Source: Brevibacillus sp. (lineage in GTDB: Bacteria > Bacillota > Bacilli > Brevibacillales > Brevibacillaceae). From it: a stretch of DNA of 64,000 nt. The notes below the pieces were generated by a model. The model saw only the letters and a list, made by a program, of their open reading frames with translations, ran no database searches and was not told the origin of the DNA. Of this stretch, positions 16,409 to 56,503 are shown one piece after another; positions within the stretch are counted from its first letter, which is position 1; each line of letters opens with the position of its first letter. Position numbers and translations under genes: made by a program. The stretch is from positions 930,001 to 994,000 of the forward strand of contig JACDOF010000001.1 of the NCBI GenBank assembly GCA_017656235.1, given 5' to 3'.

Positions 16409-16432
16409 ACAAAAAAAGCAGGCTATGCCTGC
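16409..16432 (-). terminator. terminator downstream of mtrB, at the edge of repeat A
   Basis: GCAGGC-ATA-GCCTGC followed by seven T on the minus strand. It is 457 bp beyond the mtrB stop. A partial second copy (TATGCCTGCT on the plus strand) lies at 16871-16880, only 8 bp after mtrB, with the repeat element between the two. Confidence 0.85.
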
Positions 16433-16515
16433 TCTCAGGGTATAGACAAACATATCCCGAAAGGACACACGTCCTGCTCGCGCCGCTGCCTGGCCAGTAT
16501 GCAGACAAAGGTGTC

Positions 16516-16861
16516 TGAATGGCAAAGTCGTTCGTGCGGAAAATGGCCGCTCTCCCGTCAGAACTCGCCGTCTTGGGACGAACAGGGCGCCATACGATGC
16601 TGGACGAATCTCAGAAATCTTGCTTGGGAACGAGTGTGGGCGTTTTTTCGCCAGCGAACGAACGGTTGGGCCAACCTGCCAGCGAAACGACGTATCCGCA
16701 GGGAATCGCAGCGGCAGCAGCATCACGTCGAAAGCGTGATGTCGTTTTGGCGCTGCCCCTATGGATCGTCGTGAAGTAATCCTGGACTGCTTCTTTGCTG
16801 GTTGGCCAGCGCGACTGAGGGCGAAAAACGCCCCACTCGTGTTTTCGACAGGTTGTCTGCA
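16516..16861. repeat. non-coding repeat copy A with a 209 bp imperfect hairpin
   Basis: This stretch is clearly similar to 54883-55262, with long matching runs and scattered changes. The core 16631-16839 is a long inverted repeat: the outer arms begin CGAGTGTGGGCGTTTTTTCG and end with CGAAAAACGCCCCACTCG. Further inner arms include GGCCAACC with GGTTGGCC and CATCACG with CGTGATG at the tip. Short open frames cross it on both strands, but frames do not stay aligned between the copies, so I treat it as non-coding. The bases 16434-16515 to its left are not shared with copy B. Confidence 0.85.
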
Positions 16862-16888
16862 AGCTGAGCTTATGCCTGCTTCCCGGTG

Positions 16889-17140
16889 CTACTCCTCCGA
16901 CGTGTCAAGCACGCCGTGGCGGGTCATGATGAGTGCCTTGCCCCGAACCTTGATCGCGGACGTATGCTCGGTAAACTGGGCCAGCATTACTTCTCCCTTG
17001 TCCAGTTTCTCGGTATGGTGAAAGCGTGTATCGGTGCCGCGCGTCAGGCCAATGACATGAACGCCGTTTTCCTTGGCCTTGATGACAAAGAAATCCTGAT
17101 GGATCGAAACGTTTGGCAACGAATCTTTTCGCTGTTCCAA
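16889..17140 (-). CDS. mtrB: trp RNA-binding attenuation protein (TRAP)
   Basis: TRAP forms an 11-subunit ring that, with bound tryptophan, wraps the GAG repeats of trp leader RNA and causes attenuation. The 83-residue protein has '[21 protein letters not shown]' features and '[10 protein letters not shown]' with the conserved Lys and Arg that contact RNA. The start is TTG with AGAGGGGG ahead. It has about eight more N-terminal residues than the B. subtilis protein. In B. subtilis it follows folE (mtrA); here about 2 kb with two genes and a tRNA lies between. Confidence 0.95.
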
Positions 17141-49889: not shown

Positions 49890-50175
49890 AAAACAGTGAA
49901 CAACGATGATGAAGAGAGGCTGTTCGCTTGGAAACCCCCAGAGAGCCGGTGGTCGCTGCAAACCGGTGGTTCCACGTAACAGATGAGCACTTCGGAGTTG
50001 TCAAACCGAACGGAAAGAAAGCGTCCCAGTAGGTTTGTCCGGTTGAACCGTTATCTCCAGGTCTTGTACCTGACAAGGTTTTCTCTTGCGAAAGGGAAAA
50101 CAAATGAGGGTGGCACCACGAAGCAAAAACCTCTCGTCCCTCACTACGGCAGTAGTGGGCGTACGAGAGGTTATT
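49890..50175 (+). promoter_or_regulatory. T-box riboswitch, serine-specific
   Basis: The T-box motif AGGGTGGCACCACG is at 50107-50120. Stem I carries the AGAGAG bulge (49940-49945) and a distal loop between CCGGT and ACCGG. A lower part pairs ACAAC with GTTGT, TGAAG with CTTCG and CTGTT with AACAG, leaving an internal loop with AGC at 49986-49988 followed by A: the serine codon in specifier position. The TGGC in the T-box matches GCCA, the end of tRNA-Ser with its G discriminator. GAGGG pairs with CCCTC as antiterminator. Uncharged tRNA-Ser would turn on the operon. Confidence 0.93.
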
Positions 50176-54379: not shown

Positions 54380-54655
54380 ATGATCCGTTATACGTACGAT
54401 ACCAATCAAATCGAGATAAGGGAGTCGAAAAATGAAGGCGACGTCACGTTCAACGTCATCGTGAAGACAGATGACATGCGTGATCGTGTCAAGCAGCTGC
54501 GTGCCTTCTTCGAGGAAAACAATGATTATACCGACGCGATGTTTTACTCGCATCAGGACGGCCATTACGAAGTAATCGTCCGGAACAACAACTACCTGAT
54601 TTTCCTGCTTCACGCTTTCCGCTTTCGCTGCCTTGAATCGATCTCCTGGACCTAG
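54380..54655 (+). CDS. small unknown protein
   Basis: A 91-residue acidic protein, about 45 bp after the permease gene, with GGGAGG ahead of the ATG. 'VKQLRAFFEENNDYTDAMFYSHQDGHYEVIVRNNNYLIFLLHAFRFRCLESISW' suggests an alpha/beta fold with a single Cys. I do not recognise it. The stop lies 10 bp before the terminator hairpin that forms the left edge of repeat copy B. Confidence 0.65.
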   Translation: MIRYTYDTNQIEIRESKNEGDVTFNVIVKTDDMRDRVKQLRAFFEENNDYTDAMFYSHQDGHYEVIVRNNNYLIFLLHAFRFRCLESISWT

Positions 54656-54665
54656 GGCAACACGA

Positions 54666-54702
54666 AAGGACCGTCAGGAATGGTATCCTGGCGGTCCTTG
54701 CA
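54666..54702 (+). terminator. terminator after the small gene, left boundary of repeat B
   Basis: GGACCGTCAGGA and TCCTGGCGGTCC pair around ATGGTA, then CTTGCATT. The U-run is degenerate. An almost identical hairpin lies exactly 600 bp further on. Confidence 0.75.
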
Positions 54703-54725
54703 TTAGACAACGGGTCTTGATAGAG

Positions 54726-55262
54726 GGAGGCGGCCATTTTCCTTCCTCACTCCGTGGCCAACCACCAATGATGCTGGGCTGTCCGCTTCGCCATCCCAGA
54801 GCGGGCGGGCTCAAAAGCAGTGCTGCTGCGCCGTTTGTCCAAGTTGCGCCCGTATGCCCCGCTTCGGGCTTGCTCCGCTTGGATGGTTGGCCAAGTCGTT
54901 CATTCGGAAAAATGGCCGCTCTCCTGTCAGAACTCGTCAGAACTCGCTTTGTATTGATTCTGAAGTATCTGTCGGCTCTTCGGGCAAACGAGAACCATAG
55001 GGTGCCGAGTGTGTTTCAAAGCTTTCGCATGGGACGAGTGCGGGCGATTTTTCGCCAGCGAACGGTTTGGCCAACCTGCCAGCAAAACGACGTATCCGCA
55101 GGGAAATCGCAGCGGCAACAGCATCACGTCGGCAGCGGGACATCGTTTTGACGCTGCCCCTGCGGATCGTCGTAAAGCGGTCCTGGACTGCTTCTTTGCT
55201 GGTTGGCCACCGGGAGTGAGCGAAAAAAACGCCCCACTCGTGTTTACGACACTTTTTCTGCA
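54726..55262. repeat. non-coding repeat copy B with two hairpins
   Basis: Similar to copy A (16516-16861) over 54883-55262. It has a right hairpin 55035-55240 with outer arms CGAGTGCGGGCGATTTTTCG and CGAAAAAAACGCCCCACTCG and inner arms ATCCGCAGGG and CCCCTGCGGAT. A left hairpin pairs 54726-54763 with 54885-54924 (the GCGGCCATTTT ... GGCCAACC block and its inverse); copy A keeps only one arm of this. Overlapping frames change reading phase relative to copy A, so no protein is proposed. Confidence 0.85.
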
Positions 55263-55265
55263 ATC

Positions 55266-55304
55266 TGGGACCGTCAGGAATGGTATCCTGACGGTCCTTT
55301 TTTG
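55266..55304. terminator. second terminator copy, right boundary of repeat B
   Basis: GGACCGTCAGGA and TCCTGACGGTCC pair perfectly around ATGGTA and are followed by CTTTTTTG on the plus strand. Differs from the left copy by one base in 32. It also lies 30 bp after the stop of the convergent HAD gene, where the stem could act with the run of A on the other side. Confidence 0.85.
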
Positions 55305-55331: not shown

Positions 55332-56465
55332 TCAATTAAACAGACTGGCAATCTCGCTTACGTCATTCAAGATGTAGTCAGCCTGTTCCTGTTCAAACTT
55401 TGTACGGGCTGCCTGCCCGGACAAACCGGTCAACGTGGCAGCAAACCGGCAGCCAATCGCTCGTGCTGCCAGCAGATCGGCCAGGGAGTCACCGACGATC
55501 AGAACCTCATTACCATTGGAAATCGGCAGCGGATAAGACAATACATCCCGATCGTTGGTCTCTAAACCCAGCAATCCCTTGACGTAGCAGAACGGGTGCG
55601 GTTTCGCCAACGGGGCCTGATCCGGATGTGCATTTTCCGCCGCCAGGACATGGCTGGCTGTAACGATCCGCTCCTGCTCAAACAGGTCAAGAAGACCCAA
55701 TTCGGCAAGAGGGACATGCGTTTCAATGGTCGGCCGACCGGTTCCAATTCCAAGCGACAGCCCCTTCTCTTTTAGAGAAAGCAAAATCTGACGCAGTTTG
55801 TCCGGTTCCACAATGGGAATCTCGTCCTTCAGGAACCCCCTTTTCCCCGGTTGTGCCGTCGGCCGTCCAATCGATTCCGCTACCCGTTCATCTCCCAGAT
55901 ACCACTCTTGAAACGTTTCCTGACACAACTTCCATAACTCGCTGTTCCGTGAAAAGCTGTCCGTCTCAACAGCACAGCACTCTTTGACAATATGATTGAG
56001 ATAGAGCAGCAATTCTGACTTTTGGGCATGTCCCTTGCCGAAGTCGGTGGAAAACGCGGCATAATCAAGCGAGGTGCAGCCTGCCTCGTGCAGCCACTGA
56101 CCAAGCTGCCGCAGTTGGGGTTGATTGATTTGTCCGCGCAGAAGCTGACTCACCTGTTCAGGCATGGTCGACTGCAGCTGCTGGCATAGGCGGATCAGCT
56201 GATAGGAAAACGTGAGATAGACCATGTCCCAATTGGAGTTGATCCCGCGCGACTTGATAAAGTTGAGGACATCGTCATTGGCAAAAACCGTTTGCCGCAC
56301 CCGACGAATCACCGTCTCATCAGGTGAAGGCGTAAACTGGTCACCTGCAAGCCCAAGATAGCGGGGACTGTGCAGCAACTCCCAGACAGTCAGCGCTGAA
56401 GCGTCAAAGTATCGCTCCTCGCTCAACATAACGCCGTCAACATCAAACAATATCGTTTTGATCAT
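55332..56465 (-). CDS. HAD-family hydrolase with large insertion
   Basis: A 377-residue haloacid-dehalogenase-like phosphatase: motif I 'ILFDVDGVML' at the N-terminus, motif II in 'SLGIGTGRP', Lys in 'APLAKPHPFCYVKG' and motif III 'LIVGDSLADLLAARAIG'. Between motifs I and II lies an unusually long, mainly helical cap of roughly 230 residues. The substrate is unknown. GAGGAG lies ahead of ATG 56465. It follows resE by 38 bp on the same strand and may be co-transcribed. Confidence 0.88.
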   Translation of the reverse strand: MIKTILFDVDGVMLSEERYFDASALTVWELLHSPRYLGLAGDQFTPSPDETVIRRVRQTVFANDDVLNFIKSRGINSNWDMVYLTFSYQLIRLCQQLQSTMPEQVSQLLRGQINQPQLRQLGQWLHEAGCTSLDYAAFSTDFGKGHAQKSELLLYLNHIVKECCAVETDSFSRNSELWKLCQETFQEWYLGDERVAESIGRPTAQPGKRGFLKDEIPIVEPDKLRQILLSLKEKGLSLGIGTGRPTIETHVPLAELGLLDLFEQERIVTASHVLAAENAHPDQAPLAKPHPFCYVKGLLGLETNDRDVLSYPLPISNGNEVLIVGDSLADLLAARAIGCRFAATLTGLSGQAARTKFEQEQADYILNDVSEIASLFN

Positions 56466-56503
56466 AATTGTGAACTCCTCTCTTTCTCTCATCGACCCTC
56501 GGG

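Follow-up and report, generated by a model that had tools for sequence, protein, structure and literature searches.

A terminator-flanked repeat in a Brevibacillus genome is probably a MITE of an IS1182-family subgroup that duplicates whole target hairpins

Most DDE transposons leave a target duplication of fixed length, determined by how far apart the two strand-transfer sites lie. For insertion sequences of the IS1182 family ISfinder presumably gives target repeats of 0-60 bp, and the novelty of what is described below would shrink if its entries recorded hairpin duplications. Some IS1182 members use palindromic targets (Siguier et al. 2015, as cited in PMC4923244 and PMC5678879), and IS1272 and TnSha1 of staphylococci insert into terminator hairpins by structure and not by sequence (PMC4923244). 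With IS1272, stem-loop sequence is lost and the target is not duplicated, whereas at the locus described here the stem-loop is duplicated. In the structure-dependent transposition model of Wan et al. 2017 (PMC5678879) the observed IS1272 case corresponds to pathway a, in which the stem-loop is lost, as it also is for TnSha1 (PMC4923244). Duplication of the whole stem-loop is the hypothetical pathway b of the same model; it is the pattern found here. A 2025 paper (PMC12056078) portrays the IS1182 transposases as diverse, some duplicating their target and others not.

Paired terminator hairpins at the two repeats of the window

The window, i.e. the whole stretch of 64,000 nucleotides that was analysed, contains copies A and B of a dispersed repeat. 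The features at both loci are as follows (strand and basis given for each; G000 is the genome of the window, G001 a sister species):

16409..16432, minus strand: complete terminator hairpin with U-run at copy A (sequence, flank analysis)
16436..16866, plus strand: MITE copy A, with an M3-type left end, the 3' part of M1, then M2 (repeat searches, flank analysis)
16868..16883, minus strand: probable decayed second hairpin copy, adjoining the stop of an 83-aa gene (16889-17140, minus strand) (sequence, flank alignment)
54380..54655, plus strand: 91-aa gene upstream of copy B, its terminator being the presumed target (gene context, G001 orthologue)
54668..54699, plus strand: left copy of the target terminator hairpin (putative target duplication), no U-run (sequence, flank alignment)
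54700..54722, plus strand: degenerate left end of copy B, GCATTAGACAACGGGTC; family form CAGCGTGTAGACAAAGGGTGTC (end comparison)
54704..55267, plus strand: MITE copy B, a composite of hairpin modules M1 and M2 (repeat searches, folding)
54724..54930, plus strand: module M1, a long imperfect hairpin of about 205 bp (repeat searches; M1 also occurs alone in G000 and two sister species)
55027..55246, plus strand: module M2, a long imperfect hairpin of about 220 bp (repeat searches, folding)
55245..55267, minus strand: right end of copy B, on the plus strand CGACACTTTTTCTGCAATCTG; family form CACTTTGTCTGCAATCTG (end comparison)
55268..55303, plus strand: right copy of the terminator hairpin with intact U-run (sequence, flank alignment)
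55332..56492, minus strand: convergent gene 3' of copy B, its end adjoining the right terminator copy (homologous sequence in the corresponding position of G001); judged by eye we take it to be HAD-hydrolase-like

At copy B the terminator hairpin is present twice, as GGACCGTCAGGAATGGTATCCTGGCGGTCCTT at 54668-54699 and as GGACCGTCAGGAATGGTATCCTGACGGTCCTT at 55268-55299, an offset of exactly 600 bp with a 564-bp repeat in between. The two hairpins are identical at 31 of 32 bases (GGACCGTCAGGAATGGTATCCTG(G/A)CGGTCCTT), and the G/A change lies in the stem, where pairing is possible in either form. Directly 3' of the left hairpin stands GCATTAG, without a U-run; the right hairpin is followed by four more T, which makes six in total (55298-55303). 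The initial annotation had described a 32-base hairpin duplicated 600 bp apart with one difference, its U-run broken on the left and full on the right, and the sequence bears this out. Local alignment of the left with the right flank gives a score of 59, compared with a 99.9th percentile of 27 for 9702 mismatched flank pairs. No gene was recognised within copy B. We interpret copy B as a MITE of an IS1182-family subgroup which inserts at the foot of a terminator hairpin and whose target site duplication is the complete hairpin, and put the probability of this reading at roughly 0.88.

In G001 a single terminator hairpin stands between the orthologue of the 91-aa gene and the same convergent gene. 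Relatives that lack the repeat and nevertheless carry two terminators had been named by the initial annotation as speaking against duplication; this relative has one, not two. (In G002, a second sister species, no match to the 91-aa upstream gene was found.) Tandem terminators do exist in bacteria, and the element might have inserted between, or the arrangement arisen by recombination of, terminators that were already duplicated. Given the single terminator at the orthologous G001 site, and recent insertion sequence copies with exact duplications that end at the element border (see below), such an origin is scarcely credible. Duplication upon insertion is also to be weighed against a group IIC intron, or another structured RNA element, inserting beside the terminator. 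Group IIC introns prefer terminator stems, and copy B with its flanks folds into a much more stable structure than shuffled sequences (z -11.9). A search of the window and of loci L002-L004 against Rfam gave no match in the element and no group II intron, the inverted-repeat ends match those of an IS1182 insertion sequence and, to our knowledge, intron insertion makes no target duplication; we see next to no chance for this explanation. Elsewhere in the window the Rfam search returned one T-box leader (RF00230, 106.5 bits, 49897-50144, plus strand) and one tRNA.

At copy A the complete hairpin, AAGCAGGCTATGCCTGCT, is preceded by an A run, equivalent to a U-run on the minus strand, and ends at 16432; the right flank holds AGCTTATGCCTGCT only. 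The flank score of 21 is just below the 99th percentile (22) of mismatched pairs and thus marginal by itself, so that a duplication at copy A gains weight only because of the rest of the MITE family. The annotation had recognised the same plan here, with a complete terminator on one side and a partial one on the other. The complete left terminator and a shorter right relative are indeed there, but we dropped the reading as a partial duplication: a deletion within a once-complete hairpin suits the family better, and the right remnant is most likely a decayed full duplication. Comparison of the hairpins confirmed that the terminators of copies A and B are unrelated in sequence.

The MITE family and its flanks

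The query with copy B yielded 62 matching pieces in the 3.6-Mb genome G000 (a draft of 31 contigs), and queries with its parts yielded further ones. When all matching pieces are merged, the dispersed family comprises at least 101 clusters, a lower bound since 40 candidates were scored per query. Its modules M1, M2 and M3 measure about 230, 240 and 250 bp and occur singly or in combination; the fold of M1 and of M2 is a long imperfect hairpin, and M3 has a palindromic look by eye. The ends of the MITEs are constant (5'-CAGNNTGYAGACAAAG ... CTTTGTCTGCAATCTG-3'). Among 59 genomes searched, including G000, matches were obtained in five: G000 itself, two species of the same genus (M1-like) and two genomes with one weak match each.

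We aligned the left with the right flank for the 99 testable clusters of the 101 and used the 9702 mismatched pairings as background. A score of at least 24 was reached by 21 of 99 matched flanks and by 0.39% of the mismatched pairs. Grouped by preserved ends, the fraction was 18/27 for clusters with both ends, 3/48 with one end and 0/24 with none. Across these 18 clusters the hairpin sequence is specific for the locus, with the same hairpin on either side. Of the nine both-end clusters (9/27) scoring below 24, some look decayed by eye and some show no visible repeat. Folding of the adjoining 45-mers gave a median of -13.5 kcal/mol outside preserved ends (n=103) versus -8.9 kcal/mol outside truncated ends (n=97) and -8.8 kcal/mol in the control (n=974); compared with the control, the Mann-Whitney test yields p = 4e-14 for preserved and p = 0.18 for truncated ends. 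Among 18 MITEs taken from G001 and G002, 15 likewise show a hairpin duplication and three do not. Copies lacking the duplication could be explained by decay, later recombination or other targets.

Tandem M1-M2 arrays were found in G000 at three loci (L009, C10:60054-61159; L032, C10:89454-90543; L021, C1:1207433-1208042). At all three a near-identical short hairpin, similar to GAGGCACGAACTAATCGTAACCTC, separates the units, and the arrays look as if a captured terminator were travelling with the M1-M2 composite. A hairpin between units is what one expects from a second insertion at an already duplicated hairpin, or from an array moving as a unit. The recurrence of one hairpin at three loci, where capture seems to happen, would also suit the idea that the hairpins in general belong to the mobile unit as sub-terminal hairpins. 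Single insertions, by contrast, combine a locus-specific hairpin with constant element ends, and we hold this idea to be very unlikely. REP/BIME elements are numerous intergenic hairpin repeats as well, with mosaic and tandem arrangements; the present family resembles them in these respects and differs in its IS1182-type inverted ends and target duplications.

Transposase-bearing relatives and an independent set of insertions

The sister species G001 is rich in IS1182 copies. Its transposase scores 491.7 bits against NCBIfam IS1182 (NF033551, cut-off 270), and the ends of the insertion sequence (CAGCCTGTAGACAAAG... and ...GTTTGTCTGCAATCTG) match those of the MITE, terminal inverted repeats CAGCGTGYAGACAAAG / TTGTCTGCAATCTG being common to both; the window element differs from the IS1182 family in having no transposase. 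Elements of the sister species and of another genus have the ends CAG..TG.AGACAAA ... TTTGTCTGCAATCTG together with a whole-hairpin duplication as in the MITE. At the G001 insertion sequences exact hairpin duplications of 20-31 bp are present; that of L113 measures 31 bp and that of L115 24 bp. A duplication was seen at 11 of 17 insertion sequence loci from G001 and G014 (L116 included), and the six loci without comprise four full-length and two 3'-truncated elements. The initial annotation had held that terminator stems and duplicated ends should recur at other copies; both did, in G000 clusters, sister-species MITEs and insertion sequences alike, with a hairpin that differs from locus to locus.

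When 14 IS1182 loci, each from a different genome, were scanned for direct repeats, four had a duplication (G014, G048, G018, G035); the other loci, many of them fragmentary, showed no hairpin repeat, and neither did the G001 copy scanned. Two G002 loci with IS1182 matches (L159, L160) lack a duplication. A second IS1182-type element in G001 (L119/L120, 1.78 kb, ends GAGGGTGTCCCAAAAG) has no flanking repeat by eye, so hairpin duplication is not a trait of all IS1182 elements.

The element is short, multi-copy and without transposase gene, and it shares terminal inverted repeats and target behaviour with autonomous elements of the CAG...CTG subgroup of IS1182; autonomous partners are present in the sister species G001 and were not found within G000. 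No intact subgroup transposase was detected in the 31 contigs of G000, the best of several weak matches having E = 2.8e-6, and the G000 MITEs are therefore probably fossils spread by a transposase that has since been lost. The only DDE_Tnp_1_6 match of this genome (L063, G000:C12:16454-17338) was rejected as parent: it is IS5-like, with 255 bits to NF033578 (below the cut-off of 275) and 24.5 bits to IS1182, and CAG...CTG ends are absent. L063 has an in-frame TAG at the matched position and is by eye apparently broken by a group-II-intron-like stretch.

For an independent set of named insertions we aligned four transposases, searched GTDB genomes with this alignment and took the best 80 of 414 loci, 74 of which had enough flanking sequence to be testable. 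At 64 of the 74 loci the gene is enclosed by an exact direct repeat of 12 bp or more (one being a masked N run); in the control, left and right flanks drawn from different groups had 12 bp in common in 35 of 740 pairs. The repeat was picked by length before folding; 60 of the 64 then fold as a hairpin, i.e. 60/74 testable loci, and 14/74 lack a duplicated hairpin, one of them owing to the masked N run. The set covers many genera of Bacilli and Clostridia, among them Oscillibacter and Romboutsia, though not every locus stands for a separate species: a single Bacillus strain contributes twelve of the 74. The hairpin is nevertheless a different one each time. These data bear on a replacement of the stem-loop as by IS1272, in which the element deletes part or all of the hairpin and the second hairpin is coincidental. 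IS1272 and TnSha1, which also belong to the IS1182 family, enter terminator hairpins and remove them (PMC4923244; PMC5678879). Deletion of the target stem-loop without duplication was not the pattern of the MITEs, the insertion sequences or the named set, and at the 60 named loci the hairpin is retained and copied exactly, which makes stem-loop replacement highly improbable here. Together, the family flanks, the insertion sequence copies, the named set and the single-terminator site of G001 support the original interpretation that the element seems to target terminator stems and duplicate them. The phenomenon is real and general, and its class is IS1182-family structure-targeted transposition.

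Target structure and proposed mechanism

The 60 named sites, chosen for having a hairpin, were rebuilt as empty sites. A T-tract is present on at least one strand in 58 of them and on both strands in 35 (control: 21.7% of 1180), and 3/60 insertion points fall within a long frame, versus 343/600 random points. Judged by these sequence features, the targets are terminator-like stem-loops with a T-tract outside genes. The duplication is 18-42 bp long (median 26.5, 60 loci), its centre lies within 0.5 nt of the dyad in 55/60, and the first and last duplicated bases can pair in 42/60. Pairing often extends past the border of the duplication (on average 3.45 extra pairs among the 49 symmetric cases, 1.97 in the control), so that the cut is placed near, and not always at, the last possible pair.

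The borders of the duplication coincide with the two feet of the stem, and this geometry suggests the following course. The palindrome would be extruded as a cruciform, or form a corresponding hairpin on either strand. With its two 3' ends the element would then attack both stem-loops at their 5' foot, and the entire hairpin would be copied during gap repair. As a variant, the target may be seen as a single-stranded hairpin, at the replication fork or exposed by transcription, and not as a double-stranded cruciform. That the targets are terminators with T-tracts would fit such a variant, whereas the dyad-symmetric duplications are most simply explained by two attacks, one on the stem-loop of each strand. 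The latter point is not decisive, and we regard the single-stranded variant as possible though rather unlikely.

Beyond the present genus, we think it likely that throughout a large subgroup of IS1182 in Firmicutes the two feet of an extruded stem-loop serve the transposase as cut sites, the structure measures out the length of the duplication and the terminator is rebuilt on both sides, so that the host is spared and one target becomes two, while the MITEs spread by the hundreds, form arrays via re-used hairpins and carry captured terminators. New in this is that whole-hairpin duplication is the rule in a large IS1182 subgroup, spreading terminator-borne MITEs; no description of such a rule was found in the literature searched. 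As duplication length follows the hairpin, a branch of the IS1182 model that had been proposed, and in the literature found had not been observed, becomes testable with many natural cases, and a simple rule for finding such insertions is at hand. The right hairpin retains its U-run, so the convergent genes at copy B should stay insulated, and the host is probably little affected. Keeping a terminator on either side suggests a route by which a high-copy repeat can be nearly harmless. Conversely, identical paired terminators should be viewed with caution, as they may be transposon scars.

The interior of the MITE may be under structural constraint. When three species are compared, 18 of the 59 pairs of the M1 hairpin show changes on both sides that preserve pairing (15 sequences, representing few independent events). 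Furthermore, a small hairpin is located just inside the left end of the insertion sequence (G001 loci L113 and L118) and of MITE module M3 alike (TTCCGTAAGGAA, TACCGCAAGGTA, GTCCCGAAGGGAC); it may contribute to recognition by the transposase, or protect against transcription reading in from outside.
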